A stretch of DNA of 64,000 bases, taken from NCBI RefSeq assembly GCF_015265475.1, contig NZ_CP054493.1:1550001-1614000 (forward strand), in the 5' to 3' direction. Below the pieces are notes generated by a model, which did not search any database, was not told where the DNA came from, and was given only the letters and a program-made list of their open reading frames with translations. The stretch comes from Candidatus Sulfurimonas marisnigri (GTDB taxonomy: Bacteria; Campylobacterota; Campylobacteria; Campylobacterales; Sulfurimonadaceae). Numbering within the stretch: the stretch's first letter is position 1; each line of letters begins with the position of its first letter. Below, piece after piece: positions 17,241 to 38,799 of this stretch. The position numbers and the translations under genes are program-made.

Positions 17241-18260
17241 CTACCCCATAGGATACATTATCTCTTCTTGAATAGCTTTTATCTCAGCCATGGTCTCATC
17301 ACTCAACTCTACATGTAGAGCTTCAAACGACTCGTCAAGTTGCTCAGCGTTTCTTGCACCAATAATTGTTGAGGCCACAAAATCAAAATGTTTTGAGTAC
17401 GCAACAGCTAGAGTCACCGGTGATATTTCTAGTTTTTTTGCTATTTCCATATATTTTGCAGTAGTTATAAGTGATTTTTCATTTACAAACCTTGTACCTT
17501 GAGCTTGTATGCGAGGATTATCACTTTTTAAATATTCTGAATATCTAGCATTGTCAGGATAAAACTTACCATTATATTTCCCACTCAAAACACCTCCGCC
17601 AATAGGTGAATATGGAAGAAGTGAAATCTGTTCCTGCTTACACACATTTGCCAACTCATCTAAAAACCTTGGATTATTTAGGGAGAAGTTATTTTGTATA
17701 GATTCGAATCTGGAAATGCCTAATCTTTTTGATGTCTCATTTGCTTTAGTTATACCATAAGCTGTGTCATTAGAAGTTCCTAAGTATCTAACCTTTCCCT
17801 CTTGAACTAACTCATCAAAAGCTTTTAACGACTCCTCAATTGGTACAACAGAGTCTGGCCAATGCATCTGGTATAGGTCTATATAATCCGTACCAAGTCT
17901 TTTAAGGCTACCCTCAATTGCAGTTTTAATATGAAACTTATCAACCGCAGTCATACCATGTCTAATGGGAGGAACAAACCAACCATTCGCAGCTCCTGCA
18001 ACTTTTGAAGCAATTATTAATTTATCTCGTTGTTTGTCTTTGAGCCATTTTCCAATTATAGTTTCTGTCTCACCGGCATACTCTGCCTTTGGAGGTACAG
18101 GATAAAGTTCGGCTGTATCAAAAAAATTAATCCCTCTATCGTAAGCTTTGTCCATAATCTTAAAAGACTCAGCTTCATCACTCCAGCTACCAAAACTCAT
18201 GGTTCCTAAACATATTGGAGTAACTCTTAGGCCTGTTTTTCCTATATATCTATATTTCAT
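17241..18260 (-). CDS. Aldo/keto reductase
   Basis: A 339-residue NADPH-dependent oxidoreductase of the aldo/keto reductase superfamily. Catalytic residues are in place: Asp48 and Tyr53 in NFFDTAELYP, Lys86 in IIASKVAG, and His in YQMHWPD. The loop YSPIGGGVLSGKY and the C-terminal NADPH block IIGARNAEQLDE are typical of the Tas/YajO branch. The substrate is unknown. Its start overlaps the end of the ferredoxin-like hydrogenase subunit gene by 11 bases, so it is the last gene of the hydrogenase run. It may use reductant from that system or be carried along. Confidence 0.88.
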   Translation of the reverse strand: MKYRYIGKTGLRVTPICLGTMSFGSWSDEAESFKIMDKAYDRGINFFDTAELYPVPPKAEYAGETETIIGKWLKDKQRDKLIIASKVAGAANGWFVPPIRHGMTAVDKFHIKTAIEGSLKRLGTDYIDLYQMHWPDSVVPIEESLKAFDELVQEGKVRYLGTSNDTAYGITKANETSKRLGISRFESIQNNFSLNNPRFLDELANVCKQEQISLLPYSPIGGGVLSGKYNGKFYPDNARYSEYLKSDNPRIQAQGTRFVNEKSLITTAKYMEIAKKLEISPVTLAVAYSKHFDFVASTIIGARNAEQLDESFEALHVELSDETMAEIKAIQEEIMYPMG

Positions 18261-18657
18261 TTGTACCCTTTTTAAGTTTTTCTAACTCAAACCACTCATC
18301 ATTAACTCTATCAGATTTAATACCTATTGGTGGCTTTTTATTGGTTTGCCAAAGTGCTTCATCTGGCTTTGGACAAGCTCTAACACATTCTGTACAATAT
18401 ATACAAAGGTGCGGGTTATAATAATATTTTAACCCTTTTTTATTTTTTTCATTTTGGGAATGATTTTCTATAGGAACAAATAAAATTGCTCCAGGGGGAC
18501 AAACTTTTTCACATTTCAGACAGTAGATACAATCTTTCTCACCATATTCAATAAGTCCTCTATAATTTTCATCTTTTTGTATTTTAGTAACAGGATAGTC
18601 TATAGTTTGTGGTTTTTTAAAAAGATTTTTAAGCGCATTAAGTGATGATGTAAACAT
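18250..18657 (-). CDS. echF: Ech/Hyc-type hydrogenase 2[4Fe-4S] subunit
   Basis: A 135-residue polyferredoxin of the EchF/HycF/NuoI family. It carries two cluster motifs: Cys43, 46, 49, 53 (CIYCLKCEKVCP) and Cys85, 88, 91, 95 (CIYCTECVRACP). The subunit passes electrons between ferredoxin and the catalytic NuoB-like subunit on the cytoplasmic side of the membrane. It follows the large-subunit gene by nine bases. The symbol is used by analogy with Ech hydrogenase. Confidence 0.85.
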   Translation of the reverse strand: MFTSSLNALKNLFKKPQTIDYPVTKIQKDENYRGLIEYGEKDCIYCLKCEKVCPPGAILFVPIENHSQNEKNKKGLKYYYNPHLCIYCTECVRACPKPDEALWQTNKKPPIGIKSDRVNDEWFELEKLKKGTNEI

Positions 18658-18666
18658 ATTGTCTCT

Positions 18667-19755
18667 CTATTTAGCTGTACACGATAAACAAGGATCAAAT
18701 GAAGCCAAAATTGCTGGTGCATCTGCATAATCCTGTCCAACAAATATATGTGAAAATGCTGGAATACAAGCAAAAGTAGGAGTCTTTATTCTAACTCTCT
18801 CTAAGATTGCCTTGCCATTACCTTTTACATAATACATTAACTCCCCTCTTGGGGCTTCAAATCGTACAATAGATTCCCCGTTAGGTTTTCCTTTTGCTTT
18901 TGTAAAAATTTCACCTTCAGGTAAACCTTCTATTATATTATTGCACATTTCAATCGAGTTTAGTAGTTCATTAAGTCGTACTATATTTCTTGCATTTATA
19001 TCTCCATCAGAATGTGTTTGCATTTTAAAGCCAATTTCATTATATGGAAGATAATCTATCTCATTTCTAACATCTATATTAAGGCCTGATGCACGTGCTA
19101 ATGGCCCTATAGCATTAAATCTATAAGCTTCATCAAGTGTTAGAGTTCCTATGCCTTTAAACTTTAAAGACAAACTCCAGTTGTTTGTAAACTCGTCAAT
19201 ATAAGATAGAACTTTTTCTTTAACTATTTTTAGTTTTTCAGTTATTTGTTTAGCCATTTGAGCATCTAAATCTCTATTTACTCCGCCAATACTTATAAAA
19301 TCAAACTGAACTCTGTTTCCGGTGAGAAGCTCTTGAATCTCCATAATAAGTTCTCTGTCACCCATCATTCTCATAAACATTGCTTCAAATCCTGCATTTT
19401 CACATGTATGTGATAAACAAAGCATATGAGAATGGATTCTATCTAGCTCTAAAAGTAAGATTCTTAAATATTTCGCTTTTTTACTTACCTCTGCGCCTAT
19501 AAGTTTTTCAATCGCAACACTATAAGAGAGGGAATGAGTAATAGCACAAAGCCCACAAACTCTTGCTACTACATATCCAATAGAGTCAAACTTAAACTTT
19601 GTAGTACAAGCTTTCTCAATCCCACGATGAACAAACCCAACATCAGAATCTACACCTATAATTTTCTCATTTTCACACTCAAACTTAAATCTTACAGGCT
19701 CTAATAGAGAAATGTGTTGTGATCCTAATGGTATGTTTATGGTTTTATTACTCAT
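18667..19755 (-). CDS. echE: Group 4 [NiFe] hydrogenase large subunit
   Basis: A 362-residue catalytic subunit of an energy-converting membrane hydrogenase. The nickel ligands are Cys67 and Cys70 (RVCGLCAITH) and Cys356 and Cys359 (DPCLSC). The protein ends two residues after the second pair (DPCLSCTAK). It therefore has no C-terminal extension to be cut off by a maturation protease, as in some Ech enzymes. The EAPRGELMYYVKG block is typical of the NuoD/group 4 fold. It overlaps the small Lys-rich gene upstream by four bases. Confidence 0.9.
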   Translation of the reverse strand: MSNKTINIPLGSQHISLLEPVRFKFECENEKIIGVDSDVGFVHRGIEKACTTKFKFDSIGYVVARVCGLCAITHSLSYSVAIEKLIGAEVSKKAKYLRILLLELDRIHSHMLCLSHTCENAGFEAMFMRMMGDRELIMEIQELLTGNRVQFDFISIGGVNRDLDAQMAKQITEKLKIVKEKVLSYIDEFTNNWSLSLKFKGIGTLTLDEAYRFNAIGPLARASGLNIDVRNEIDYLPYNEIGFKMQTHSDGDINARNIVRLNELLNSIEMCNNIIEGLPEGEIFTKAKGKPNGESIVRFEAPRGELMYYVKGNGKAILERVRIKTPTFACIPAFSHIFVGQDYADAPAILASFDPCLSCTAK

Positions 19756-19994: not shown

Positions 19995-21763
19995 GTTATT
20001 TCTCCTGCTAATGTTTTTATCTCTTTATCTTTTATAAATAGAGTAATTGCAACTTCAATTAATCTTTTTGATATATCATAAGCAAATGAAGAATCATTTA
20101 TTAATGATGTTGCCATTTTAGAGGTAATACTATTATTTCTAATTATTGTATCAATCCTCCCATTTGCTATTATGTCAAGATCTTTTACATCTTCTTTTAA
20201 GAGTTTTATCTTAAGTAAAATCTCCATGTCGTCATCTTCTCCATTTCTAATCTCATGAATACTATTTAATGTATTTGCAATCTTCTCTCTCAATACATTG
20301 TACTCATTTTTAATGACATCATTTTTACTTTTTTGATAAAAATTGATGTTTTTTTGTAGCTCCTCTACTTCCTTGATCGCTTCAACAATATCTTTTGATG
20401 CTACTTTATAATAATAAACCATTCTTATTTGAAATTCATCCATCTTATCTTGGGACAATGTGGCATATTTTACAATATCCCCATAAAGTTCTTTAATCTT
20501 TGTTTCATAAAATCTATTGACATCGATGTCTATTTTAGAACTTGATTGTTTTACAACTTCTGACACATTTTCTTTTCCTAAAAAAGAGTGCCTATGCAGA
20601 GAGATAGCATGAGATAAAACTTCTGTTGCATTATCATATAAGTGAAGAAGCTCTTTATCTAATGCAGCTAATGCAGATTCTGGAACTTCAATCACTGCAC
20701 TATCTAAATATTTAGCTCTAGATATATTCTTGTTTTTTTCTAGAAAAAGACCCTCTAAAAAAACAACTAATTTATGAGTAAAAGGAGAAACAGCCAAAAC
20801 ACCTATTATATTGAATACTGTATGAAACAGAGCTAACTTCATCGCATAATCTTTATCACCTATACCAACACTTGCACTTAAAACATCTACAAAATCTGCC
20901 AGCTGATACAAAAACACAATGGCTATAAAACCGGTAACAATATTAAAAATAAAATGGGCTACTGCGAGTCTTTTTCCATTTGCATTAGAAGACAATGAAC
21001 CTATAATTGCTGTTACAGTAGTACCTATATTTGCACCAATTGCTAAGGCAAGAGCATTTACATATTCTATTTGTCCTGTGGCTAAAGCTGTAATAATAAT
21101 AGCCATTGTTGCACTACTTGATTGTATTACAACTGTTGCTACAGCTCCAATAAGAATATATACTAAAACTCCAAGGTAACCATCCATCGCAAACTGAGCA
21201 AGGTCAAGTCCAGCCTTCATCCCTTCAAAGCCCTCTTTCATGTATCCAATACCTAAAAAAACAAAACCAAGACCAACTAAAATATTTCCTAAACCTTGGT
21301 AACTTTTGTTTTGATTGAACCTAAAGACTACACCAAAGATAAGCATTGGCATTGCGTAGTGAGCAATGTTAATTTTTACACCAAAAGCAGATACAATCCA
21401 AGCTGTTGTTGTCGTACCAATATTTGAGCCAAATATTACACCTATTGCACCGCTTAATGATATAAGTTCAGCACTTAAAAATGATATAATAATAATTGTA
21501 AGAAGAGATGAACTTTGAACAATAGCTGTTGCCAAAAAACCTGTTCCTATAGCTTTTGGAACAGTTTTTGTGCTTTTTTCCAACACTTTTTCAAGCATAC
21601 CACCACTAAAAAGTTTAAAACCATCTTCCATAAAGACCATACCAATTAAGAATATGGCAATCCCTGCTATAATTGTTTTTGCATCAGCACTTGAAAACAA
21701 TAAATACGCGATAGCCAATAGAAATAATGGGTACATTGACCTTTTGAATATATCTGTTCCCAT
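19991..21763 (-). CDS. Na+/phosphate cotransporter family protein with PhoU-like tail
   Basis: A 590-residue inner-membrane protein of the NptA/PNaS family. Two inverted repeats carry the QSSS motif (residues 83 and 214, QSSSLLT and QSSSATM) with GSNIGTTTT and GANIGTTVT. About nine membrane segments lie in residues 10-340. The last 230 residues form a helical PhoU-like domain. The family couples phosphate movement to Na+. The gene lies inside the hydrogenase run, two bases after echD and overlapping the next gene, so it is part of the same operon. That suggests either a sodium-dependent partner of the membrane hydrogenase or a shared need for phosphate. Confidence 0.87.
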   Translation of the reverse strand: MGTDIFKRSMYPLFLLAIAYLLFSSADAKTIIAGIAIFLIGMVFMEDGFKLFSGGMLEKVLEKSTKTVPKAIGTGFLATAIVQSSSLLTIIIISFLSAELISLSGAIGVIFGSNIGTTTTAWIVSAFGVKINIAHYAMPMLIFGVVFRFNQNKSYQGLGNILVGLGFVFLGIGYMKEGFEGMKAGLDLAQFAMDGYLGVLVYILIGAVATVVIQSSSATMAIIITALATGQIEYVNALALAIGANIGTTVTAIIGSLSSNANGKRLAVAHFIFNIVTGFIAIVFLYQLADFVDVLSASVGIGDKDYAMKLALFHTVFNIIGVLAVSPFTHKLVVFLEGLFLEKNKNISRAKYLDSAVIEVPESALAALDKELLHLYDNATEVLSHAISLHRHSFLGKENVSEVVKQSSSKIDIDVNRFYETKIKELYGDIVKYATLSQDKMDEFQIRMVYYYKVASKDIVEAIKEVEELQKNINFYQKSKNDVIKNEYNVLREKIANTLNSIHEIRNGEDDDMEILLKIKLLKEDVKDLDIIANGRIDTIIRNNSITSKMATSLINDSSFAYDISKRLIEVAITLFIKDKEIKTLAGEIT

Positions 21764-21764
21764 A

Positions 21765-22118
21765 TTACGCTCCTACCCCACAGCTGCTTAGTGGCATTTG
21801 TGTAGAGTCTGCGTCTAGATAGAGTCCTTTTGAACTTCCTTCAACCTCAACACCGAACATATCAACTATCTCTCTTTGTGAAATTATTGCTGATGGTATA
21901 ATATCTACTACAGAAGGAACTACATCTCCTTGATTAATTACCGTAAAAAACACAACAACCTCATCTAAACTCTCATATTTTGAGAACATCCATTGAATTT
22001 CTATTTTTCCATCTTCTAACGCAACGCCATTTAGTGTTATAAAGTGCCACTCTTTTTCAGTGTAAAACTCTTTTATTTTTTCTATTGTATTCTCGAGTGA
22101 TACTTCAATTTTTCTCAT
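21765..22118 (-). CDS. echD: Ech/Hyc-type hydrogenase NuoC-like subunit
   Basis: A 117-residue subunit related to the 30 kDa (NuoC) subunit of complex I and to EchD. The family region is near the C-terminus: VVPSVVDIIPSAIISQREIVDMFG. I placed the start at MRKIEVSL, with GGAG seven bases upstream; the frame is open further upstream but that would overlap echC by 60 bases. NuoC-like proteins pack against the large subunit. The gene overlaps the end of echC and is followed directly by the transporter gene. Confidence 0.78.
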   Translation of the reverse strand: MRKIEVSLENTIEKIKEFYTEKEWHFITLNGVALEDGKIEIQWMFSKYESLDEVVVFFTVINQGDVVPSVVDIIPSAIISQREIVDMFGVEVEGSSKGLYLDADSTQMPLSSCGVGA

Positions 22119-22638
22119 CAGCTTCTCCAACTTTAAGTGCACTATCTCTTCTGGAAATAATACCATCTTTTAAATTATTATCTTTAAATAATTTAAATGG
22201 TTTTTCCATTTCTTTAGTTTTTATCTGTAAAATCTCTAATCCTTTTACCACTCCGTCAATTATAAGCTCTGGCGAAGTTGCACAGCCTGGAATATAAATA
22301 TCAACTGGTATATATCTATCTACACCATCCTCCACATTATACATATCTCTAAATACTCCACCCGTACAGCTGCAACTTCCAACCGCAACAACAATCTTTG
22401 GCTCTGGCATCTGAGTATATAACTCAACAAGACGCTCCCTGCTTCTATATGTTACTGGGCCTGTAACTAAAAATATATCTGATTGTTTTGGGTTTCCTGT
22501 GTTTATAACTCCAAATCTCTCTAAGTCATATTTTGGGGACATACATGCAAGTATCTCAATATCACACCCATTACAGCTACCGGCATTATAGTGAAGTATC
22601 CACGGTGATTTTCTTCTATACTTTTTTATATCAAACAT
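22105..22638 (-). CDS. echC: Ech/Hyc-type hydrogenase small subunit (NuoB-like)
   Basis: A 177-residue small subunit that carries one [4Fe-4S] cluster near the nickel site. The four ligands are Cys22 and Cys25 (GSCNGC), Cys89 (GSCSCTGG) and Cys119 (PGCATSP). It lacks the medial and distal cluster domains of periplasmic-type small subunits, as expected for group 4. A tail after residue 145 is charged and divergent. It overlaps the NuoH-like gene by eight bases. Confidence 0.9.
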   Translation of the reverse strand: MFDIKKYRRKSPWILHYNAGSCNGCDIEILACMSPKYDLERFGVINTGNPKQSDIFLVTGPVTYRSRERLVELYTQMPEPKIVVAVGSCSCTGGVFRDMYNVEDGVDRYIPVDIYIPGCATSPELIIDGVVKGLEILQIKTKEMEKPFKLFKDNNLKDGIISRRDSALKVGEADEKN

Positions 22639-23455
22639 AACTAAGTCCTAAAAGATTGACTAACGACAGGGTAAATCCGATAGATAAAACAATATTTATC
22701 AGATGTTTCATTTTAACTCTGGCTGTAGCGTTATCGACTATATTTACCAATAAAAAAACTCCAATCAAAAGAGCAATAGAGAGAATTATATTATTACCTG
22801 CAAACAAAACAAGTAATAAATATATAAAAACATATTCAAGCCATTTAGCCATATATATAAATTCAAAGAATATCCCACTAAATTCTACCTCTACGCCACC
22901 TACTATCTCTTGATGAGCTTCACTAGCGTCAAATGGAGACTTTTTAAGCTTTATGGGAATAATCAGTAAAAAAGAGAGAAAGATTAGGACTAGTGAGATT
23001 ATTTCTGAAGGGTTTGCTCTTATAACAGGTATGTCAAAAGTGCCATTAATTATATAAAACCCTACTGCCATAATTATTAAGATTGGCTCATACGCTATAG
23101 TGGCTAACAACTCTCTGTTGGAACCTATGTGAGAATAGATAGAGTTCACACTAAAGCCAGCAAGGATTATAAAAATAGTTGAGAGCAGATGTAAAAAAAC
23201 TACATAGAGTAAGTTCTCTCCGAGTATTATAAAAGCAACAACCACCCATATAGTTACAAAGTGCATTATCCCCAATATACTGTGGTAAGGGTTTACAATA
23301 AAAGCCTGCTTACCAATTAGCTTGTACATGTCATAAAAAGGCTGCAAGATTGGAGGACCTTGTCTATTCTGCATTCTAGCTCTTACAACTCTCTCAAAGC
23401 CATAAATCAAACCACCTACAATGGGTGCAATAACAATCAGTATTATTTCTATCAT
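22631..23455 (-). CDS. echB: Ech/Hyc-type hydrogenase membrane subunit (NuoH/HycD-like)
   Basis: A 274-residue membrane protein with about eight helices. The family landmark is RVVRARMQNRQGPPILQPF and YDMYKLIGKQ in the first loop, as in NuoH, HycD and EchB. DASEAHQEIVGGVEVEFSG is the conserved acidic cytoplasmic loop. This subunit joins the catalytic arm to the ion-pumping membrane arm. It overlaps echA by four bases. Confidence 0.9.
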   Translation of the reverse strand: MIEIILIVIAPIVGGLIYGFERVVRARMQNRQGPPILQPFYDMYKLIGKQAFIVNPYHSILGIMHFVTIWVVVAFIILGENLLYVVFLHLLSTIFIILAGFSVNSIYSHIGSNRELLATIAYEPILIIMAVGFYIINGTFDIPVIRANPSEIISLVLIFLSFLLIIPIKLKKSPFDASEAHQEIVGGVEVEFSGIFFEFIYMAKWLEYVFIYLLLVLFAGNNIILSIALLIGVFLLVNIVDNATARVKMKHLINIVLSIGFTLSLVNLLGLSYV

Positions 23456-25209
23456 AACATCACCCCCACTATAAGTATGAATATACTAACTATAGCTATA
23501 ACATTAATAAGTTGTTTATACTTTTGAGAAATATCAAAGTAATACATGTTTAACTTCACTTCATCTTTCTCACCACAATTATACTCTTTTACCCTATGTG
23601 CTTTTTTAAATACAAATATAGCAAATAGCATTGGTATCACAGCAATTAAAACCAAAGGAACTATAATCTCTAAAGCACTTAACAGCTCTATATCAAAACT
23701 GATATAGACACCGATAAATAGCAAAGCCAAAAGCATATATGATGGAACTGTATATAGCTTTGGTATCTCTACATGTAGCTTCTCTTTATAATCAACATCT
23801 TTGGCAAAAAGTTTTGTCACCACCTTAAAATAGAGCAGTGTTAAAAATACACTTCCCATTGCAACAAATATCAGAGCAAGAGAGTATAGAGGATTGTTTA
23901 CAATCTCTTTTGCTATGGACTCAATTGCCATAAACTTTGCTACAAATGCTCCAAAAGGTGGAAGTGTCAATGAAGCAAAACCAATAATTATAAAAAAGAC
24001 CACTAACGGGGAGTGATTGATTAAACCGTTTATATCATTAACATATTTCAGATGGAAGCTTTTTTCCAAAATACCAGCTTGTAAAAAGAGCAGTGCCTTA
24101 GAGATAGCATGAAACACTATTAAAACCAAACAAGCCATAATAGCTTCTTCTGTTCCTATAGCTGCTAAGCTCATCATCAGAGCAAGAAGTGCTATAGTAG
24201 AAAGACCCAATATCTCTTTAAAATAATCTTTGCTCAGAGCAAGCAGTGAGGCACTAAAAAATACGAAGGTACCGATAAGAGTAATAGTCACAGATACAAA
24301 TCCGCTCATTGCAGGAGCAAGTTTAAACATTATATACGGAGCGATTTTCACCATTGTTGCACTATGTAAAATTGCACTGACTGGAGTTGGTGCAACCATA
24401 GCACCTAAAAGCCACTTCTCAAACGGTATGCTCGCCCCCTTAACAAAGCCAGCAATTGCTAAAAATACAATCGGGAGAAGATATAGCTCATTAATGTTTG
24501 TTATTAACATGTCAAAGTAGGCAGTGTTATAGTGATGTATTGAAAAAATTATAGCTATCAAAATAGCAACTCCACCTATCTGATTCATCCATAGTGCTTT
24601 TAGTGCATTATTAGAAGATATCTCATCTCCCCTATATCCTATTAATATAAAAGAGCAGAGTGTAGTCAATTCAAACAACATAAAAAATATCTCAATATTG
24701 TTAGTTGAAACAATAAAGTTCATAATCGACAAGAAGATAAACAGTATAGCAATAAAGGCATTTTTTTTAAACGCACTAAACTCTTCACTCTTTATATACT
24801 CTAAGGCATATATAATAATTATCCCACCTACAATATTTATGATTAGATACATAACTGATGATATATTATCAACTAAAATATCATTTGAAAGAAGCGTAGG
24901 GGACAAAGATAAAACTACTGAGTATAAGAGCATTTGCATTATGGCAAGAACGGTCACTAGATAGTGTTTTTTTATAATCCCTTGTGCAAGAAAGTATATA
25001 AGCAGTAGAGTATCAACTAGAATAAATATATTATGTAATGAATGAGACAAGTTGCTCTCAAAAGAAGTGGTTTCTAACGTCATGTTAAGCAGGCTTAATA
25101 TACTCAAAATTATAACAAAAGAGACAACTAAAATATTTCTAATTTTAACTCTCCCAATAAAAACTGTAAGAGCAAAAATTAGTGGAGAAATAATCAATAT
25201 ACTATACAC
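23452..25209 (-). CDS. echA: Ech/Hyf-type hydrogenase antiporter-like subunit (NuoL/HyfB-like)
   Basis: A 585-residue membrane protein of the Mrp/NuoL/M/N family with about 14 to 16 helices. The conserved pump motifs are visible: GFVKGASIPFEKWL, APTPVSAILHSATMVK, and the Lys/His helix FHAISKALLFL. Such subunits move H+ or Na+ across the inner membrane, driven by redox at the catalytic arm. It is the only antiporter-like subunit here, as in Ech. The ion is not decided by sequence. Confidence 0.88.
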   Translation of the reverse strand: MYSILIISPLIFALTVFIGRVKIRNILVVSFVIILSILSLLNMTLETTSFESNLSHSLHNIFILVDTLLLIYFLAQGIIKKHYLVTVLAIMQMLLYSVVLSLSPTLLSNDILVDNISSVMYLIINIVGGIIIIYALEYIKSEEFSAFKKNAFIAILFIFLSIMNFIVSTNNIEIFFMLFELTTLCSFILIGYRGDEISSNNALKALWMNQIGGVAILIAIIFSIHHYNTAYFDMLITNINELYLLPIVFLAIAGFVKGASIPFEKWLLGAMVAPTPVSAILHSATMVKIAPYIMFKLAPAMSGFVSVTITLIGTFVFFSASLLALSKDYFKEILGLSTIALLALMMSLAAIGTEEAIMACLVLIVFHAISKALLFLQAGILEKSFHLKYVNDINGLINHSPLVVFFIIIGFASLTLPPFGAFVAKFMAIESIAKEIVNNPLYSLALIFVAMGSVFLTLLYFKVVTKLFAKDVDYKEKLHVEIPKLYTVPSYMLLALLFIGVYISFDIELLSALEIIVPLVLIAVIPMLFAIFVFKKAHRVKEYNCGEKDEVKLNMYYFDISQKYKQLINVIAIVSIFILIVGVML

Positions 25210-25222: not shown

Positions 25223-27928
25223 TTAAACTGTTTTATTTACTGTTATACTCTCAATATATCTTTTAAATTCTACTACAAAAAGAACACCGGATGCAATTAC
25301 TAATATCCCTATCCATGTTTGTATATCCAAAGCTTCACTTTTAAACATAATATTCATAAAACTGACATGTGTGAATGTTAACTGAGCAAAAATCATTAAA
25401 CCTACCCCTAAAAGTAAAAATTTATTGTTAAATATATCTGTTTTAAAAACTGAGTTTTGCAGCTCTTTACAGCTAAACAGGTAAAAAAGTTCTACAAAAA
25501 CAAATATATTTACAGCAACTGTTCTGGCATACTCAACACTATGTCCATTTGCTATCGCATAATTAAACATGCCATAAGCGGTAATCAACATGTAAACGCC
25601 AACAACTAACATCTGAACAATCATACTTTTTCTAAGAATAGAGGAGTTTGGCTTTCTTGGCTTTCGTTTCATAATACCGTCCTCTTTTGGCTCAAAAACC
25701 AACATAAGACCTAGAAATATAGCAGTTGACATATTAATCCATAAAATTTGCACAGGAAGTATAGGAAGTGTTAAACCAAGCATAATAGCAAAAAGTATCA
25801 CAAGTCCTTCTCCAAGATTTGTAGGTAGTGTCCATGTGATAAATTTAATCAAATTATCAAATACATTTCTACCCTCTCTAACAGCATGAGTAATTGAGCT
25901 AAAGTTGTCATCGCTTAATATCATATCTGCTGCCTCTTTTGCCACCTCTGTGCCACCTCGTCCCATGGCTATCCCTATGTCAGCCTGCTTTAGTGCCGGA
26001 GCATCATTTACTCCATCACCTGTCATTGCCACTATCTCACCCCTTGCTTGAAGGGCATCCACTATACGAAGTTTTTGTTCAGGCTCAACCCTTGCAAATA
26101 CTCTTGCATGTGATACTTTTTCAATCAACTCACTGTCTCTCATTTTTGAAAGCTCTATTCCTGTTATAACTGACTCCTCAAACTTTGAACCCTCGTCAAC
26201 TATAGACATCATTTTTGCTATAGAGAATGCGGTAAGAGCATGGTCGCCTGTTATCATAATAATTTTTATTCCAGCTCCAATAGACTCTTTAACAGCTTCA
26301 ATAGCTTCAGGTCTTGGAGGATCCATCATTGCCACAAGACCTAGAAAGATAAATTTATTATCAAGCAGCCTGCTGTCTATTTTATCTCCTGCTACTAATT
26401 TTTTTGAGATTGCTAGTACCCTCAAGCCTTGACCTGCAAACTCTTTTACTTTTTCAAGAATCTTATCTTTATTTATTTCTACAAGTTTTTCATCTATAAA
26501 TTCAAATTCACTAATATTTAAAATTTTTTCAACAGAACCCTTGAGATACAAAATATTTTGATTATTCTCTACATCCATGTTGATGGTAGCCATAAACTGT
26601 CTATCTGATTCAAATGGGAGCAAATCACTTCTTGGAAAGGTTTTGTTTAGTATCCGTTCTTCATAACCACTTTTCAAAGCACTAACAATAAGTGAACCTT
26701 CAGTAGGGTCACCGTTTATGCTGTAGTGCCCATCTTTGTTTATCAGATAAGACTCATTACATAGATAGCCGGCTCTTAGAAGATCTTTTAATTCATCACT
26801 GAAAAATTCTAATTTATTGCCATCTTGCAAAAAATCGCCTTTTGGCTCATATCCATTTCCGGTTATCTCATATGTGTTGTCTGAACAATATATATGTGTA
26901 ACACTCATCTTATTTTGTGTCAAAGTACCTGTTTTATCTGAACATATTACAGTAACACTTCCAAGTGTTTCAACTGCTGGAAGTTTTCTGATTATGGCAT
27001 TTTTACTAGCCATTCTACTTACCCCAATAGCAAGAGTAATAGTTACAGCTGCTGGCAACCCCTCGGGAATAGCTCCAACAGCTAAAGCAACTGAAGCCAT
27101 AAACATTTCAACCGCACTATTATCTCTTAATATACCAACAACAAATGTAAATGCAGCAAGAGCTAAAATCACATAAAGTAAAATTTTACTAAAGGCTGAA
27201 ATTTTCTTTGTAAGGGGAGTATCCATAGCTGTGGTGTTTTCTATGAGATGCGCAATTTTTCCAAGCTCTGTATACCCTGCCGTTGCTACAACTATACCTT
27301 TTGCTCTGCCATAAGTTACATATGTTCCGGAGTATGTCATGTTGTCTCTGTCATTAAGTGTAATATTTTCTTTATGTATGTCTGTATTCTTTTGTGAAGG
27401 GAGTGATTCTCCTGTGAGCATAGACTCATCTACTTTTAGATTTTTACACTCTAAAAGTCTCATGTCAGCAGGTACTTTTGAGCCAGACTCTAGTAAAACT
27501 ATGTCCCCTGGGACTAAATCAATAGAAGATATATTTATCTTTATTCCATCTCTAATCACTATAGCTTCGGCATTCATCATATTTTTTAGTGACTCGATTG
27601 CCTCTTGTGCTTTTACCTCTTGTATGTACCCTATAATAACGTTAATAATTACTACAGCAAAAATCACCCCGCTATCTATCCACTCTTGCAAAAAAGCAGT
27701 CACTGCAGATGCACCTAAAAGTATATATATTAAAGCACTATGAAACTGCATAAAGAATTTTTTTAACTTAGAGTCTTGTTTAGTTTCTTTTAATATATTT
27801 TTACCAAAGAACTCTTCACGGTGTTTTATGCTTAGTGGCGATAAACCATCGCTAATATCACTTTCAAATAGTTCTGTAATCTCTTTAGCTTGTATACTGT
27901 GCCAATTTTGACCTGTTAAATATTTCAT
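25223..27928 (-). CDS. P-type cation-transporting ATPase
   Basis: A 901-residue P-type ATPase of the P2 group (Ca2+, Na+ or H+ exporters). Key elements are intact: TGES (172-175), PEGLP in helix M4 (288-292), the phosphorylated Asp331 in [16 protein letters not shown] and the hinge [10 protein letters not shown]. Ten membrane helices are expected, with a full C-terminal set of six. The PEGLP motif argues against P1B heavy-metal pumps. Helix M5 reads [10 protein letters not shown], which differs from the SERCA-like calcium site, so the ion is uncertain. The gene lies between the two hydrogenase gene sets in the same direction, which is unusual. Confidence 0.88.
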
Positions 27929-27959: not shown

Positions 27960-28478
27960 CTATTTTAACTCTTTAATTACCTCTTGTAATAACACGTTAT
28001 CTTTTTTTATAGCTTTAACACCTAACTCTTCTACACTCTTTATTACTGCCTCTATCAGCAAGTTGAATTTTTTTTGTAATGCCTTACTAAGTCCTATTTT
28101 AACATTGTAAATATCTTCTGCAACAACGCCAAAAATAGTTACATTTGCTATTTTATCATGTAGCTCACAAGCTTCTAACATCTGTACTACTTCAACTTCA
28201 TGGGCTGTATTTTTGTATCTTGTACTCCCTAACAACTCATCAGATGGTATTTTATAGACCTCACCTGCTTCATCTTCAATTGAGATAGTGTCAATAATAA
28301 AAACATTATCATATTCAAGAAAATACTCTATCAGTCCAAAACCGAGTGTTCCACCATCAAGTATCTCTAACTCTGGATTGAAATCAAAGTTCTTTTTCAA
28401 ATATGAAGCAGCAATAATACCCACCCCATCATCACAAAAAAGCAAGTTACCGATACCTATAATTATATTTTTAGCCAT
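27960..28478 (-). CDS. Hydrogenase maturation endopeptidase (HyaD/HybD family)
   Basis: A 172-residue protease that removes the C-terminal extension of a [NiFe] hydrogenase large subunit after nickel insertion. The family signature IGIGNLLFCDDGVGI is at residues 6-20, with the nickel-sensing acidic residue in the DDGVG loop. DGGTLGFGL and FIIDTI follow, then the His in EVEVV-rich loop region (HEVEVVQML). It directly follows the group 2-like large subunit, whose extension is its likely substrate; the group 4 large subunit in this operon has none. Confidence 0.88.
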   Translation of the reverse strand: MAKNIIIGIGNLLFCDDGVGIIAASYLKKNFDFNPELEILDGGTLGFGLIEYFLEYDNVFIIDTISIEDEAGEVYKIPSDELLGSTRYKNTAHEVEVVQMLEACELHDKIANVTIFGVVAEDIYNVKIGLSKALQKKFNLLIEAVIKSVEELGVKAIKKDNVLLQEVIKELK

Positions 28479-28492: not shown

Positions 28493-30172
28493 CTATAGAG
28501 TTTTAATCTTGTATTGACCTAGTTCTTTACCGTTTGTGTCTATTACATGTACAGCACATGCAAGACATGGATCAAAAGAGTGTATAACTTTTAATACTTC
28601 TAACGGCTTTGAGGTGTCTTGTATCTTTATCCCAATTAACGCCTCTTCGTAAGCTCCACGTTTTGAGTCAAAATTTTTAGGAGTAGCATTCCATGTTGTC
28701 GGTGCAATTACAGAAAAGTTTTCTATTTTAGCATCTTTAATTTTTACAAAATGGCACAAAACTCCACGAGGAACTTCAAGAAAAGCTCTCCCTTTGGTAT
28801 CTTTTTGTAAATTGTTAAAATCAAATTTCACCCATGTATCTGTATCGTAGTATTTAATATTTTGAATCATTCTTGATACAAGTTTAAAAATATATTCACA
28901 TACATAACTGGTCTCTATAGCTCTTGCTACATTTCTTCCAACAGTAGATGAGAGGTCTAAAAGTTCTAAATCTGTCTCTTGTAAAAACTCATCTACAAAA
29001 GGTTTTATAAGTTTGTTCTCTTTTATATAACTAACCAACACTCTTGCAAGCGGTCCTGTCTCCATGGTTTCACCATCGTACCTAGGAGCTTTTATCCAAG
29101 AGTATTTATCATCATTTTTTGCAGTCTTTAGAGTTCCGTCTTCATTCAAATCTGTATAGCATACTTCATTTTCTTCAGGAGTACCCTTATACCAAGCACG
29201 ATCAATCTCTTCTGTTACTTTTCTCTCATCAAAATCTTCTATTTTACTAAAATCATGATTGTATATAACTCCACCGCAAAATAGTCTCTGGTCACCCTCA
29301 AACTCATATCCGCCAACAGATAAAAAGTTTCCATTAGCCCTTCCTAGCCCGACTTTTATCTCATCACGATATGCTGTGGCTAAAAGTTTTGCATCTGGAA
29401 GATAAGCACGCTCAATAAAATCTTTAGCCTCTTTTATAATAAAAAGATAATCATTGAGTCTCTGAGGATTTAACATATCGGCCACACTAGTAACCCCGCC
29501 TACTACTAATGTCTGAGGGTGTGGAGTCTTTGCCCCAAAAATAGCTACAGCCTTGCTTATATTTGTTTGAAATTTCAGCGCTTCTAAATAGTGAGAAATC
29601 ATAATCAAGTTTTGTTCAGGTGTTAGTTTATAATCACTATGTCCCCAGTAGGCATTTGCAAATGGCCCAAGTTTTCCAGCTTTTACAAAATTTTGTAGTT
29701 TTTCTATAACCGCTTCATAGTGTGAATGGGAGTTTCTAAAAGGTTTTTTTGCATACTTGTGAGCCTCTTTGGATGTCGCTTTAGGGTCTGCACTTAATGC
29801 AGATGTTACATCAACAAAATCCAAAGAATGAAGATGGTAAAAATGGACTACATGGTCTTGAATAAAAAGTGCCATAGCAATTAAGTCTCTAATAATCTCA
29901 GCATTTTTTGGGATTTTTAAAGAGTAAGCATCTTCTACACATGTAATTGCTCCGCGAAAGTGTGAATTAGTACAAACACCACAAATTCTACCAGCCATAA
30001 GTCCTGCATCTCTAGGGTCTCTATCTTTTAATATAATCTCAATTCCGCGAAAAAGCTGACCACTTACATAAGCCTCTTGAACAACTCCATCTTCATCGAC
30101 TTCAACCTCAACTCTTAAATGTCCCTCTATTCGTGTAATAGGGTCTATTACAACCTTTTTTATACTGCCCAT
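28493..30172 (-). CDS. hupL: [NiFe] hydrogenase large subunit (group 2-like)
   Basis: A 559-residue catalytic subunit. The nickel ligands are Cys64 and Cys67 (GRICGVCTNSH) and Cys536 and Cys539 (DPCLACAVH). Seventeen residues follow His542 and would be cut off by the protease encoded next. DPITRIEGHL at residues 10-19 is the classical N-terminal motif. There is no membrane anchor gene, and the small subunit has no Tat signal, so the enzyme is cytoplasmic. That, and the CSGN motif in the partner, point to group 2 of the uptake hydrogenases. The start overlaps the stop of the fused small-subunit gene by one base. Confidence 0.9.
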   Translation of the reverse strand: MGSIKKVVIDPITRIEGHLRVEVEVDEDGVVQEAYVSGQLFRGIEIILKDRDPRDAGLMAGRICGVCTNSHFRGAITCVEDAYSLKIPKNAEIIRDLIAMALFIQDHVVHFYHLHSLDFVDVTSALSADPKATSKEAHKYAKKPFRNSHSHYEAVIEKLQNFVKAGKLGPFANAYWGHSDYKLTPEQNLIMISHYLEALKFQTNISKAVAIFGAKTPHPQTLVVGGVTSVADMLNPQRLNDYLFIIKEAKDFIERAYLPDAKLLATAYRDEIKVGLGRANGNFLSVGGYEFEGDQRLFCGGVIYNHDFSKIEDFDERKVTEEIDRAWYKGTPEENEVCYTDLNEDGTLKTAKNDDKYSWIKAPRYDGETMETGPLARVLVSYIKENKLIKPFVDEFLQETDLELLDLSSTVGRNVARAIETSYVCEYIFKLVSRMIQNIKYYDTDTWVKFDFNNLQKDTKGRAFLEVPRGVLCHFVKIKDAKIENFSVIAPTTWNATPKNFDSKRGAYEEALIGIKIQDTSKPLEVLKVIHSFDPCLACAVHVIDTNGKELGQYKIKTL

Positions 30173-32589
30173 TATTTCTCATCCTCAACATACTTTCTCT
30201 CATTTGCAAACTTATCAAAGAAGCCAACTTCCACACAACCCATACAACCATGTCCAGCCTGAACCGGCCAACTTGTTCCAGCATTGAACTTCATGGTCGG
30301 GCAGTTTACATTTGTGTAAGGACCTTTGCATCCAACTTCGAAGAGACAGTAACCCTTTTTAGCACCCTCATCGCCCCACTCTTTTACAAACTCGCCAAGT
30401 TCATAATGACCGCGTCTCTCACAGTTGTCATGAACTCTCCCCTCATATGCCCAAAGAGGACGGTTAAACTTATCAAGTGCCGGCAACTCTTCAAACATTA
30501 TATAAGAGAGGAGAGTTCCTACTATGTTTGTCGGATTTGTAGGACATCCTGGAATATTGATAATATCATCACGTTTAAGTGCCTCGGCAACTCCAACTGC
30601 ACCCGTAGGGTTTGGATGAGCTGCTACAACACCGCCATCAAGTGCACAGCTTCCAACTGCAATAACAAGTGCGGCATCTTTTGCACATTTTTGCAGAAGC
30701 TCTAATCCTGTCTCACCTTTCGGTCCGATTCTAAGGTATTTTCCATCCATAGCCAAAGGTACTGCACCCTCAACCATTAAAATGTACTTACCCTTTTCAT
30801 TCTCTATGATATCTTCTAAAATTGTCTCACTCTGGTCTCCGCTTGCACTCATAAGCAACTCATGATAGTCAAGTGAGATATAGTCAAAAATAAGATCTTC
30901 TATAGCGGGGTTTGTTGATTTTATAAAAGCTTCTGAGTTTCCGCTACAATCTGCCAGCTCCAGCCAGATTATTGGGACTTTATTCAGATTACAAACTGCA
31001 TTGTCTACAACCTGCTCAAAACTAGGGTGAAGCTGCATATTTGCAGTTACCATAGATATCCAGCTGTTTACCTCTTTTTTGCCTATATCGAGAGATGCCA
31101 TTGCTGATTCTAGGTTGTCTGTGCTTAGGTTATTTCTCGGGTGGATAGAGTTAAATTTATCTATTCGTTTGGAGACTTCTGCAATCTCTTTTTCTCTTTT
31201 TATATCTTCTGGAGATTTTCTGGGCATATTCGGGTCTATGAGATGTTGAGACTCTTTAATTACATCTGCAACCATAACCTTACATCTTCCACACACCCTG
31301 CCCGCTTCACTAAACTGTGCAAGTTCTGAAAATGATGAAATTCCTGCTTGAGTCACAATATCAACTAAATCTTGCTGGTAAATATGCTCACAACTGCATA
31401 TAAGTCTCCCTCTCTCGCCGATTAGTCTATTCTCATACAAGTAGTTTATATCTAGCTTTTCTCCGCTGTTTATTAGAGTTTCCAAATAGCCTACATCAAC
31501 ATTAGAGTTAATACCTATAAATCTTGTCAATTTGTCATCAGTTACAAAATACTCATCTATTCTGTTGTCTGCTTTTGATGTTATGAGAACCTTCTCATAA
31601 TCACTTGTAAACTTCGGTGAATTAACTTCAATTAAGTCAAACTCACCAACTTTCAACATATCAATACTTGTGTTTAGTTCAAACTCTTTTATATCTATTT
31701 GAAGTAGATGTGAGATAGCGCAATCAGCCTGAGCAGTACACTCTTTTACATGTCCTGCTACATAGTTAAACTCGCTAACTTCTGCACACTCACCAACGGC
31801 ATAGATATCCTCATCATCTGTTTGCATGTATAGATTTGTTAAAATCCCTCTGTTGCACTCAAACGTCTCTCTGAACTCCTCAATGTTTGGCTTTATGCCG
31901 ACGCCAAAGACTAAAAACGGGTTTTTTATTTCAAGTTTTTTAGTTTTAAGAAGTTTAATCTCGCCGTTTTCTATAACTTTGTCAACTATCTCATCTTCAT
32001 AGGATATTTTAATTTTTCCATCTTTTAGATAACACTCTTCAATGGTTTTAATAGAGTCTATTGAGAGGTTTTTGTCATACAAATGTTTACCACGGATAAG
32101 AAGAGTTATCTCTTGCACATTTGGCATCTCATTTAGAGTTTCAAGTAGTTCAAGCCCTATCGGACCGCTCCCTACAACAACAACCTCTCTATTGTTAATG
32201 CCATATTTAATCATTTCACAATCGTCAGCACTTCTAAAAACTGTTGCATTTTTTATATTTTCTATATTAAACAGAGAGATTGGTGTGGAACCGGTTGCTA
32301 TAATCAGCTTATCGTAGCTAAACATAGAGTTGTCAGAAAATACACGCTTAGCATCTTTGTCTACTCTTACTACTTTTTGAGAAAGTTCCAATTTTACGGT
32401 CGGGTCTAAGGGCAGAGATATTCTGTCTGTATCATCATCTCCGTCAACCAAACGACAGAGGTGAATTCTATCGTACGGAGGGTACTTCTCATCACTTAAT
32501 ATCGTAACTTCCAAAGAACTGTTTTGCTTTTTAATATTGTTTGCCAAATATACTGCGGCTATGCCGCCGCCTACGATTATAACTCTCAT
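30172..32589 (-). CDS. Fusion of FAD/NAD(P) reductase, BFD [2Fe-2S] domain and [NiFe] hydrogenase small subunit
   Basis: An 805-residue three-part protein. Residues 1-320 form a pyridine-nucleotide disulfide oxidoreductase like NirB or rubredoxin reductase: FAD loop GGGIAA at 7-12, NAD(P) loop GSGPIG at 140-145, and DIYAVGECAE at 261-270. Residues 390-445 form a BFD-like [2Fe-2S] domain with Cys398, 400, 433 and 436. Residues 535-805 are a hydrogenase small subunit. The proximal cluster has Cys548, Cys648 and Cys682; the fourth position is Asn551 (CSGN), as in cyanobacterial HupS. His720, Cys723, 748, 754 and Cys763, 782, 785 serve the other clusters. No signal peptide is present. The layout suggests direct electron flow from H2 to NAD(P)+ or, by bifurcation, to a second acceptor; that is inference. 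Confidence 0.9.
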   Translation of the reverse strand: MRVIIVGGGIAAVYLANNIKKQNSSLEVTILSDEKYPPYDRIHLCRLVDGDDDTDRISLPLDPTVKLELSQKVVRVDKDAKRVFSDNSMFSYDKLIIATGSTPISLFNIENIKNATVFRSADDCEMIKYGINNREVVVVGSGPIGLELLETLNEMPNVQEITLLIRGKHLYDKNLSIDSIKTIEECYLKDGKIKISYEDEIVDKVIENGEIKLLKTKKLEIKNPFLVFGVGIKPNIEEFRETFECNRGILTNLYMQTDDEDIYAVGECAEVSEFNYVAGHVKECTAQADCAISHLLQIDIKEFELNTSIDMLKVGEFDLIEVNSPKFTSDYEKVLITSKADNRIDEYFVTDDKLTRFIGINSNVDVGYLETLINSGEKLDINYLYENRLIGERGRLICSCEHIYQQDLVDIVTQAGISSFSELAQFSEAGRVCGRCKVMVADVIKESQHLIDPNMPRKSPEDIKREKEIAEVSKRIDKFNSIHPRNNLSTDNLESAMASLDIGKKEVNSWISMVTANMQLHPSFEQVVDNAVCNLNKVPIIWLELADCSGNSEAFIKSTNPAIEDLIFDYISLDYHELLMSASGDQSETILEDIIENEKGKYILMVEGAVPLAMDGKYLRIGPKGETGLELLQKCAKDAALVIAVGSCALDGGVVAAHPNPTGAVGVAEALKRDDIINIPGCPTNPTNIVGTLLSYIMFEELPALDKFNRPLWAYEGRVHDNCERRGHYELGEFVKEWGDEGAKKGYCLFEVGCKGPYTNVNCPTMKFNAGTSWPVQAGHGCMGCVEVGFFDKFANERKYVEDEK

Positions 32590-36270: not shown

Positions 36271-38799
36271 CTATTTCGCTTTAAGAATAGGTAATCTAAT
36301 CTTAAAACATGTAGTTCTACCTTCGCTTGCAACCTCTATTTTGCCACTGAGATGTTCTTGTATAATCATTTTACTCATGTAAAGTCCAAGACCTGTCCCT
36401 AATGTTTCGCCTTTTGTAGTAAAGTAGGGATCAAATATTTTTGGTAATATTTTTTTATCTATACCCTTTCCATTATCACATATCTCTGTATTTACATACT
36501 CTTCATCATCGTATACTTTAATTTCAATCGTGGCATTTTCTACTTTATGAGATAATATTGAATCTTTAGAATTATTTATGATATTCACAAACACTTGCAT
36601 CAACTCTCTTGGATAAGCACTCACCTCTGAATCGGAATCACAAGAGTATTTAAATTCAATACCATTATTTACAAGAATATCTTTTACCATTGAATGTGTC
36701 TCTTCTAAAATATCTTTTAACTTAACAGGGGAAAGTATCTTATCTGGTTTAAAAAAGTTTCTAAAGTCATCTATTGTTTTAGATAGATATTGTGTCTGCT
36801 TAAGGATACTATTAGAGTACTCCTCAGCACTTTTGCTGTTAAAATCATCAAGGGATATATCTAATAGCATATTATTAGTCCACATAGCAATAATTGCCAA
36901 AGGCTGACGCCATTGATGAGCAATCATGCTTATCATCTCTCCCATTGCCGCAGAGCGTGATTGTATAATTAACATTTCATCTTTTCTTTTTAGTTCTGTA
37001 ATATCCATTGCTGATGATATGACGGTGCGTTTACCATCCATTACACCAAGTGGAGCTGAGCTAAACTGCCCTATAATTATCTCTTTATTTTTTGTGATAA
37101 TATTGTACTCCCCCTCACCAACAGCCTTGTTAAGCTCATACAATTCATCTATATGTTTTTTTACAGTTGGCATCTCTTTGCCATATGCTTTTTGTGTCCA
37201 TTTTTCTATGGTGTTTATTTCACTGAAGCTGTAGCCTGTAAGTTCTTCCCATACTTTATTTACCATTAAAACTTTACCATCCTCGTTATGCAACATAATC
37301 GGATTTGGCGCTTCTAGTATTATGGTTTCAAACTCTCTTTTTTTCTGCTCTAACAATTCAAGAACGTTTTGTTGTTCTGTAACATCTTCATGTGAGATAA
37401 CAATGTTTTGCACAGTTGCATAACTATCTTTTAAAGGGTAAATAATAGTCTTTAACCAACGTACCCTGCCTAAACCGCTCCCCTCTGTTTTACCGGTAGG
37501 ATTAAACTGATATATTGGTACATGTACAGATTCACCAGCATATGCCATATTAATATACTCTAGTAGACCTGTCTTCTTTACCTCTTCGCTTTTAAATAAA
37601 TTAAACTTGTTCAGAGTATGACTTGCTGGAAATTCCCATAGTTTTTCATATGCACTATTAACATCTATCTGTAAACCATCCAAATCATAGATTTCTATCA
37701 CAGATGGGGATTGTTCCATTAACGACTTAAACTGCTCCTCTCTTACATGAAGTGATTTTTCTGCCTCTATTCGTTCGGTGATATCCATAAAGCTTATAAC
37801 AACTTCTGTGATTTCATCTTTAGCATCAAAAGCCGCAAAACCATTTACCAATGCCCAGATAATGCTTTTGTTACCCTCAACACCATTTTTCTTAAGAATT
37901 CCAATCATTATATTTTTTATAGGTTTTTTGCTAGACAAAACTAAATTTACAGGATAATCCTCAATTTTCAAAGGGGTTTCATCTTCACGAATAAATACCC
38001 ATTGCTCATCACTTACCAAACGACCTTTAATGCTTTCATTATCTAAACCAAGAATTTCCGATGCTTTTGGATTATTATATACAATTGTTGTATCCGGGGC
38101 ATACACTACTACTCCCAAGTTTATGTTATATAACAAATCAGAGAATCTTTTTTCACTATTTATTATTTTTTCTTCCATCTGTTTTTGTTCAGTAAAATCA
38201 GCTGAATTTCCAACAATCCCAAAAGTATTCCCATCTTCATCTAATAGCGGTGATTTTACTGTTAAGAGATAAGCTTCATGTCCATCAGGGTAAGTAACCC
38301 ATTCAAAGTTTGACTTTGCTTTATTTTCTAAAATCATTTTATTATCATATTTACGGAAAGAATCAGCAACTTCTTTTTCAAAAAGGTAATAATCACTCTT
38401 ACCTATAATCTCATCTTGCAACCTACCTGTATATTTTTCAAAAGCACTATTGCAAGCAATATAAAAACCATCCATATCTTTTGCAAAAAGTATATTTTCT
38501 ACACTGTTAATAATATTGTCATATAACTCCTGTTTGGATTTTATAAGATTCATAGCTTCGGATTGTTTTTTCAAAAAGTATAAAACAATAAAATAGAGGA
38601 TAATGCTTGTAGAGAAGACGTAAAAAAAACCTTTGTACGTTTGGAGAAGATTTAAGTTGTTTTTATCGGTAGATATCGCTTCAACAGCAGTATCCGAAAA
38701 GTATATCCATAAAATACCCAATATAAAATAGAATATGGCAATAAGTAAGGCACTCTCAAAATTGTTTAAATTTTTATTTTTCATCAAATAATCCTGCAT
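36271..38799 (-). CDS. Membrane-anchored multi-PAS histidine kinase
   Basis: An 842-residue kinase. Two N-terminal transmembrane helices (about residues 17-34 and 53-70) flank a short periplasmic loop that is too small for a sensor domain. Four PAS domains follow to about residue 610. Each has an INxAxxxL or YVNNxA-type core and a PAC end such as GNSADFTEQ or SFMDITERIE. The phosphoacceptor is His628 in IAHQWRQP. The ATPase domain has NIINNSKD, DNGKG and GTGLGLYMSK. No response regulator is adjacent. Sensing is probably cytoplasmic, by redox or small molecules bound to PAS. Confidence 0.88.
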   Translation of the reverse strand: MQDYLMKNKNLNNFESALLIAIFYFILGILWIYFSDTAVEAISTDKNNLNLLQTYKGFFYVFSTSIILYFIVLYFLKKQSEAMNLIKSKQELYDNIINSVENILFAKDMDGFYIACNSAFEKYTGRLQDEIIGKSDYYLFEKEVADSFRKYDNKMILENKAKSNFEWVTYPDGHEAYLLTVKSPLLDEDGNTFGIVGNSADFTEQKQMEEKIINSEKRFSDLLYNINLGVVVYAPDTTIVYNNPKASEILGLDNESIKGRLVSDEQWVFIREDETPLKIEDYPVNLVLSSKKPIKNIMIGILKKNGVEGNKSIIWALVNGFAAFDAKDEITEVVISFMDITERIEAEKSLHVREEQFKSLMEQSPSVIEIYDLDGLQIDVNSAYEKLWEFPASHTLNKFNLFKSEEVKKTGLLEYINMAYAGESVHVPIYQFNPTGKTEGSGLGRVRWLKTIIYPLKDSYATVQNIVISHEDVTEQQNVLELLEQKKREFETIILEAPNPIMLHNEDGKVLMVNKVWEELTGYSFSEINTIEKWTQKAYGKEMPTVKKHIDELYELNKAVGEGEYNIITKNKEIIIGQFSSAPLGVMDGKRTVISSAMDITELKRKDEMLIIQSRSAAMGEMISMIAHQWRQPLAIIAMWTNNMLLDISLDDFNSKSAEEYSNSILKQTQYLSKTIDDFRNFFKPDKILSPVKLKDILEETHSMVKDILVNNGIEFKYSCDSDSEVSAYPRELMQVFVNIINNSKDSILSHKVENATIEIKVYDDEEYVNTEICDNGKGIDKKILPKIFDPYFTTKGETLGTGLGLYMSKMIIQEHLSGKIEVASEGRTTCFKIRLPILKAK

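Follow-up and report, generated by a model that had tools for sequence, protein, structure and literature searches.

The gene at positions 30172..32589 (minus strand) of a 64,000-nucleotide stretch of the Candidatus Sulfurimonas marisnigri genome (NZ_CP054493.1, positions 1,550,001 to 1,614,000), referred to here as the window, encodes a protein of 805 amino acids. An oxidoreductase with sites for flavin adenine dinucleotide (FAD) and NAD(P), a BFD [2Fe-2S] domain, and the small subunit of a [NiFe] hydrogenase are joined in it in one chain. Our reading is that this protein and its partner large subunit form a cytosolic H2:NAD(P)+ oxidoreductase that would supply reductant for biosynthesis and would be derived from an exported uptake hydrogenase; we put its probability at roughly two in three. 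It draws on the domain order, the conserved ligands, a decayed export leader, the grouping of the fused forms in one clade, the selection on the gene, and the gene neighborhood, all of which can be seen in the DNA. The fusion belongs to a kind that has already been described and is functionally uncharacterized. Hansen and Perner (2016), citing Scott 2006, reported it in Hydrogenovibrio crunogenus XCL-2, with the missing Tat signal and the NADH-binding domain of that small subunit, and named Thioalkalimicrobium microaerophilum, Sulfuricurvum kujiense, Sulfurovum AR, Sulfurimonas autotrophica, and Arcobacter nitrofigilis as other carriers (PMC4744846). An earlier note on this DNA, made from the letters alone, had called the fusion the best candidate for an undescribed enzyme type, a proposal that is not supported, since the same fusion is in print. 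The note had also allowed that such fusions might already be characterized with the same function: the description exists, but the passages of that paper that deal with the fusion report no reaction and leave the function unresolved. No description beyond PMC4744846 was found in a literature search, which was not exhaustive.

The fused frame was unbroken over its 805 codons. In Pfam, Pyr_redox_2 covered residues 1-276 (147 bits), Fer2_BFD residues 396-446 (35 bits against a cut-off of 26), Oxidored_q6 residues 548-695 (103.5 bits), and NiFe_hyd_SSU_C residues 715-795 (101 bits). The NirB model TIGR02374 covered residues 4-446 at 158 bits, without reaching its whole-protein cut-off of 578, and the small-subunit model TIGR00391 covered residues 491-795 at 375 bits, above its cut-off. 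Together with the alignment of 57 relatives, these matches divide the protein into four parts, all on the minus strand. Residues 1-395 (31405..32589) are a NirB-like oxidoreductase of the pyridine nucleotide-disulfide type with FAD and NAD(P) sites and a C-terminal domain, as seen from Pfam, the NirB model, and a fold match, and residues 396-446 (31252..31404) are the BFD domain. Residues 447-536 (30982..31251) form a linker, the second half of which is a decayed twin-arginine (Tat) leader by alignment and leader profile. Residues 537-805 and the stop codon (30172..30981) are a small subunit of the group 1 type, as assigned by domain models, alignment to HoxK, and a tree. Base 30172 is common to the stop of the fused gene and the start of the large-subunit gene (28493..30172, minus strand; PF00374, 650 bits), identified by sequence and tree as well, whose product has a C-terminal extension beyond DPCLACAVH. 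A hydrogenase maturation protease gene of the HycI/HyaD kind (27960..28478, minus strand; PF01750 and TIGR00072 above cut-off) then follows. The large subunit scored 505 bits with the model NF033181, against 73-132 bits for the group 3-type models that matched. Scans for promoters and terminators were near chance (23 against 17.8 expected and 3 against 2.5 expected, respectively). An opposite-strand open frame of 151 codons inside the fused gene (30250-30705, plus strand) is probably a shadow of codon use.

An assembly join or a frameshift was rejected as the source of the fusion. The genome is a single contig of 2,488,728 bases, and the fusion was found over the whole query in 38 of 397 Campylobacterota genomes, with partial matches in two more (G324 and G392). 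The 38 genomes spread over four families, 29 of them in the source organism's own. In a separate set from that family, 58 of 111 genomes matched at 1e-150, 55 at full length and 3 in part (G881, G860, and G846). The gammaproteobacterial family of Thiomicrospira microaerophila had the fusion in 6 of 62 genomes, the center genome included; in a class-level sample around the same species, it was found in 1 of 369 genomes, which was the center genome itself. Recurrence across the phylum, the family, and a gammaproteobacterial family excludes chance and assembly error. Thus, the earlier note's placement of reductase, four-cysteine BFD domain, and small subunit in one frame was confirmed: the frame is intact and the same domain order is found again in many genomes.

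Inspection of 45 loci from the genome collection gave 36 near-full-length fused genes (L020 and L025 run off their contigs and L033 stops early), 2 broken copies, 4 copies cut by contig ends (L040, L044, L045, and L048), and 3 unfused exported small subunits. The last three (L046, L047, and L049) are Tat-exported with a CAGC motif and were set aside; L047 and L049 come from Chloroflexota. The broken copies lie at L035:5499-9556, split into three pieces, two of which are separated by extra DNA, and at L037:6001-8020, in two overlapping pieces with part missing. No plasmid-borne copy was found, as none of 486 matching plasmid records covered 80% of the query in one place. A search against anti-phage families gave no match at E 0.001. 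The alignments below used 57 distinct full-length proteins, drawn from 64 loci long enough to be included.

The linker bears on where the enzyme came from. In an alignment of the genome's own exported small subunit with the fused protein, the match began at residue 471 of the latter and ran through the Tat leader of the former. At the leader site, two adjacent arginines were found in 0 of 57 fused proteins, and the remainder of the leader still aligned. A profile built from 22 exported leaders matched 57 of 57 linkers when just those 57 were searched, with E values of 5e-11 to 2e-4, and six linkers given a shuffle test scored 70-93 against shuffled means of 33.6-36.4, which none of the 500 shuffles of each reached. 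Thus, the fusion was built from a whole exported precursor, with the leader now serving as a linker. As the linker is a decayed Tat signal peptide, an exported group 1 hydrogenase would have been relocated to the cytosol, and the fused protein has no usable export signal. The absence of an N-terminal signal peptide, remarked on in the earlier note, stands; the decayed leader at residues ~491-536 was not visible to that reader.

The Fe-S ligands were largely retained. The BFD cysteines C398, C400, C433, and C436 were invariant in 57 of 57 relatives. Alignment to the solved structure of HoxK, with positions given the names that we take to be those of the proximal, medial, and distal clusters, showed that the distal set (H720, C723, C748, and C754) and the medial set (C763, C782, and C785) are kept; the only gap at C785 was in L020, where the frame is cut by the contig. 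In the proximal set, C548, C648, and C682 are kept and the fourth ligand is N551, within the motif D547-C548-S549-G550-N551 (30937..30951, minus strand). Thus, the small subunit retains 10 of 11 ligands and has Asn as the eleventh in all 57 relatives, and the ligands are unchanged down to 51% identity. The same CxGN form was seen in 11 of 19 Campylobacterota loci picked for exported small subunits, which read DCAGN and retain the twin-arginine motif. These DCAGN subunits form a clade of their own apart from the ECTGC type (L088, L080, L079, L087, L089, L086, L084, L083, L082, L081, and L036, all with a twin-arginine leader). Yonemoto et al. (2014) list Asn at the proximal position in Nostoc punctiforme, and an Alteromonas hydrogenase with C81N was reported to be functional in H2 evolution (PMC4070099). 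The Cys-to-Asn change is one that is reported to be compatible with activity.

Trees of both subunits point to one event of fusion. In the large-subunit tree (88 rows thinned to 71, with HoxG, HyaB, HybC, and HoxC as named references under the group labels that we assume for them), 46 fused partners formed a single clade (100/100) that has the Thiomicrospira lineage nested inside it (99/95). Its sister was the clade of exported ECTGC enzymes (100/97), followed by that of the exported DCAGN enzymes. In the small-subunit tree, 31 fused rows (28 of the 57 and 3 from the Thiomicrospira family) again formed one clade (100/100) with the Thiomicrospira lineage within it, and the sister relation had weaker support (92/70). 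Both trees were drawn from midpoint roots with few named references. A first small-subunit tree of 57 fused, 22 exported, and 2 group 2-like rows was dropped because the two distant group 2-like rows fell inside the fused ones, a misplacement taken for a long-branch effect. The trees fit one origin in Campylobacterota and the transfer to gammaproteobacteria that was earlier proposed by Hansen and Perner (PMC4744846). Since the sister clade has Cys, there were either two gains of Asn or one gain and one loss.

Nonsynonymous change is low relative to synonymous change in each part of the gene. The median ratio of nonsynonymous to synonymous change (dN/dS) was 0.11 for the reductase, 0.07 for the BFD domain, 0.11 for the linker, and 0.046 for the small subunit, based on 26 pairs, not independent of one another, from 40 of the 57 genes. 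These low values in all four parts speak against a decaying gene. A decaying, inactive hydrogenase was raised as a possibility for XCL-2, where no activity was seen (Hansen and Perner 2016; PMC4744846), and the lost Tat motif, the changed proximal Cys, and the broken copies L035 and L037 would agree with it. Given the selection, the invariance of the ligands at 51% identity, and the presence of Asn in exported relatives as well, we consider it very unlikely.

The N-terminal half was closest to NirB, CoA-disulfide reductase, BphA4, and putidaredoxin reductase, all enzymes with known electron partners, and residues 1-395 matched the fold of putidaredoxin reductase and BphA4. The Rossmann motif GxGPI is conserved. 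Where the second strand of the Rossmann fold for NAD(P) ends, residue 165 is V, I, L, S, or A in the 57 relatives, and residue 166 (32092..32094, minus strand) is Arg in 56 and Ile in L043. The alignment to BphA4 placed residue 165 opposite E175 and residue 166 opposite T176, and the BphA4 triple mutants E175A/T176R/Q177G outscored the wild type against the fused protein (61.7 and 55 bits). BphA4 mutants of this kind favor NADPH. We lean toward NADP(H), or both NADP(H) and NAD(H), as the coenzyme suggested by the motif.

From these features we infer which clusters the enzyme holds, the path of its electrons, its coenzyme and direction, its place in the cytosol, and what it does in the cell. 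H2 would be split at the [NiFe] site of the large subunit, and electrons would pass through a proximal cluster held by three Cys and Asn, a medial [3Fe-4S], and a distal [4Fe-4S] cluster to the [2Fe-2S] cluster of the BFD domain, then to FAD, and as hydride to NAD(P)+, with NADP+ a more likely acceptor than NAD+. The one-chain route from nickel through Fe-S clusters to flavin and NAD(P) that the earlier note had suggested thus appears possible, with its ligands conserved except for the one proximal Cys. Ferredoxin, its other suggested acceptor, finds no support as a direct partner within the chain, and the low-potential link rests on neighboring genes. In evolutionary terms, an exported group 1 uptake small subunit would have been joined once, in Campylobacterota, behind a NirB-like reductase; together with the decay of the Tat leader, this would have converted an enzyme of respiration to one of biosynthesis. 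The published potentials are -414 mV for H2 under standard conditions, about -280 mV for NADH, and about -500 mV for ferredoxin (PMC9304861). By these values, electrons run downhill from H2 to NAD(P)+ and uphill from H2 to ferredoxin, a pattern consistent with a soluble NAD(P) enzyme that has an ion-driven enzyme of the Ech type as its neighbor.

Such a neighbor lies downstream of the fused operon at 18250-25209, as a cluster that we presume to be rightly named Ech-type. On the minus strand, it consists of membrane subunits like NuoL (23452..25209; recurring neighbor class 8) and NuoH (22631..23455; class 10), a NuoB-like small subunit (22105..22638; Oxidored_q6, class 9), a NuoC-like subunit (21765..22166; class 14), a large subunit with both CxxC pairs kept as RVCGLC and DPCLSC (18667..19755; Complex1_49kDa, NiFeSe_Hases, and translation), and a ferredoxin-like subunit with Fer4 domains by Pfam (18250..18657). 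The NuoL-, NuoH-, and NuoC-like subunits were named by reading. A Na/Pi cotransporter gene (19991-21763) lies inside the cluster and a P-type cation ATPase gene (25223-27928) between it and the fused operon, so that ion-linked genes are clustered here. In the family set, 30 of 111 genomes carry the Ech-type large subunit (E 1e-80). The fusion is present in 28 of these, within 20 kilobases (kb) on one contig in 22 and on different contigs in 6, and the two sets of genes occur in two different orders. Within the source genus, the association was weak (6/8/1/15, n=30, p 0.03). The fused enzyme and this neighbor would provide NAD(P)H and ferredoxin for the fixation of CO2 and N2. Among the 111 genomes, nifH was found in 51, of which 42 have the fusion and 9 lack it; 16 have the fusion without nifH and 44 have neither (Fisher test, 4e-9, uncorrected for kinship). 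Nitrogenase-related genes (NifN, flavodoxin, and ferredoxin-like) lie at 10801-14958 in the window, and nifH itself is at G000:C1:1546152-1547009, ~3 kb beyond its left end.

The same linkage could be explained by hydrogen cycling, in which the fused enzyme would run mainly in reverse, making H2 from NAD(P)H, and its Ech-type neighbor would use that H2 and an ion gradient to reduce ferredoxin, so that the pair acts as an NAD(P)H:ferredoxin oxidoreductase. Besides the 28 of 30 Ech-bearing genomes with the fusion, this would account for the ferredoxin-like gene that ends 3 bases before the start of the fused gene in L082, the sole such operon read base by base. However, production of H2 from NADPH requires a low H2 pressure. 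We regard this explanation as unlikely, and the more specific proposal of a two-enzyme cycling unit with an NADP-linked fused enzyme (reduced ferredoxin from NAD(P)H by way of H2) as unlikely to much the same degree. If it were true, sulfur-oxidizing autotrophs would have a source of low-potential electrons for nitrogenase and the reductive tricarboxylic acid (rTCA) cycle without bifurcation.

Several points weigh against an H2:NAD(P)+ oxidoreductase in the cytosol. Of the 58 fused family genomes, 30 lack the Ech-type gene at E 1e-80, which also counts against hydrogen cycling and means that the fusion must work without it. The link between nif and the fusion was not significant within the source genus (8/6/5/11, n=30, p 0.27). 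The preference for NADP hangs on one short motif, an Arg with no acid, and since the automatic alignment to E. coli NirB has a two-column gap at the coenzyme motif, the Glu of NirB was matched by eye only. The structure model had a mean predicted local distance difference test score (pLDDT) of 74 and a predicted template modeling score (pTM) of 0.56 and was good for the reductase half only; six longer segments between residues 479 and 781 fell below pLDDT 50, and with the small-subunit half so poorly modeled, cluster distances and the electron path were beyond judging. H2-dependent NAD(P)+ reduction by such a fusion was not reported in the literature searched. Finally, in Hydrogenovibrio strains with an XCL-2-type large subunit, H2 uptake was found with the membranes and not in the soluble fraction, and XCL-2 was inactive in all fractions (PMC4744846). 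The uptake, seen in membrane fractions of strains SP-41, TH-55, MA-3, and L-12, would suit a membrane-associated uptake hydrogenase that feeds quinone or another membrane partner and has the reductase domain as a side input. However, the authors had no small-subunit sequences for these four strains, XCL-2 has no cytochrome b gene (PMC4744846), and in the window no such gene comes after that for the large subunit. This explanation seems to us rather improbable.

Of the four [NiFe] large-subunit frames in the genome, none looked group 3-like (two placed by tree and two judged by reading). The genome's one NuoF-type gene has NuoD- and NuoE-like frames, named by reading, next to it. Group 2d, to which the cytosolic Aquifex-type enzyme tied to the rTCA cycle belongs (PMC5401914), was rejected as the identity of the fused gene; a different frame in the genome, of 433 amino acids, is accompanied by a group 2-like small subunit at C1:1728238-1729395. 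A second match (1e-50) was found in 32 of the 38 fused Campylobacterota genomes, and in the other 6 no small subunit but the fused one was found at E 1e-10, so the fused gene can occur on its own. A 50-kb plasmid of Sulfurimonas paralvinellae (L114; NZ_CP041407) carries a hydrogenase of the exported type together with a second hydrogenase pair, near transposase and integrase genes.

A hydrogen sensor of the HupUV/HoxBC kind would likewise have no export signal, and the CxGN motif is also found in the genome's own group 2-like small subunit (ACNGN). Frames that read as histidine kinases lie at 36271-38799 and 39665-40957, at least 3.7 kb away, but no kinase-like gene is adjacent to the fused operon. 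Also, the large subunit groups with group 1 and, unlike HoxC, it has an extension at the C terminus and a protease of its own. A sensor is thus the explanation to which we give the least credence.

What the XCL-2-type hydrogenase reduces is a standing question that has now become testable. The passages on the fusion in PMC4744846 do not mention the leader fossil, the invariant Asn, the Ech linkage, or the name BFD. Classifiers that use only the large subunit would call the fused enzyme a respiratory group 1b hydrogenase, as Hansen and Perner did (PMC4744846). For several Sulfurimonas strains, Wang et al. (2021) gave a count of two or three "Group I" hydrogenases and suggested different H2 affinities, with no mention of the fusion in their passages on the group I enzymes (PMC7952632); among the enzymes so counted there may be one that is cytosolic and NAD(P)-linked and serves another role. 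If the reaction were shown, the fusion would add a route by which H2 drives the formation of NAD(P)H, would offer a two-subunit module that is of interest for recycling coenzymes, and would be a case of a signal peptide turned linker.

Among known systems, the closest is the XCL-2-type ("cluster II") hydrogenase, Tcr_2035-2043, with a small subunit of 813 amino acids (805 here) that has the pyridine nucleotide-disulfide oxidoreductase domain and no Tat signal; the window protein likewise has a decayed leader with no arginine pair. Its large subunit is group 1b-like, as is the window's by model scores and tree, not HydDB. The exported group 1b hydrogenase of Campylobacterota (ECTGC type) has the sister large subunit and a homologous leader region, but is Tat-exported and unfused with a CxxC proximal motif. 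The window large subunit falls in the group 1 clade of the respiratory uptake hydrogenases, whereas, of the Tat export and membrane cytochrome b that mark group 1b, the arginine pair is gone and no cytochrome b gene lies behind the large-subunit gene. The N-terminal half of NirB has the same FAD/NADH domain followed by a BFD [2Fe-2S] domain; it differs in having Glu near the end of the second strand, is 23% identical over the aligned part, and feeds siroheme. The group 3b and 3d NAD(P)-linked [NiFe] hydrogenases use separate diaphorase subunits and, by model scores, have large subunits of another lineage. The reaction given for them in the HydDB table is the one predicted for the fused enzyme. 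In the HupUV/HoxBC sensors, HoxC ends at the C-terminal motif, whereas the window large subunit continues beyond DPCLACAVH. Cyanobacterial HupSL (group 2a) is cytosolic and tied to N2 fixation, has no fused reductase, and is of a different lineage. It shares with the fused protein the change from Cys to Asn at the proximal cluster (PMC4070099).

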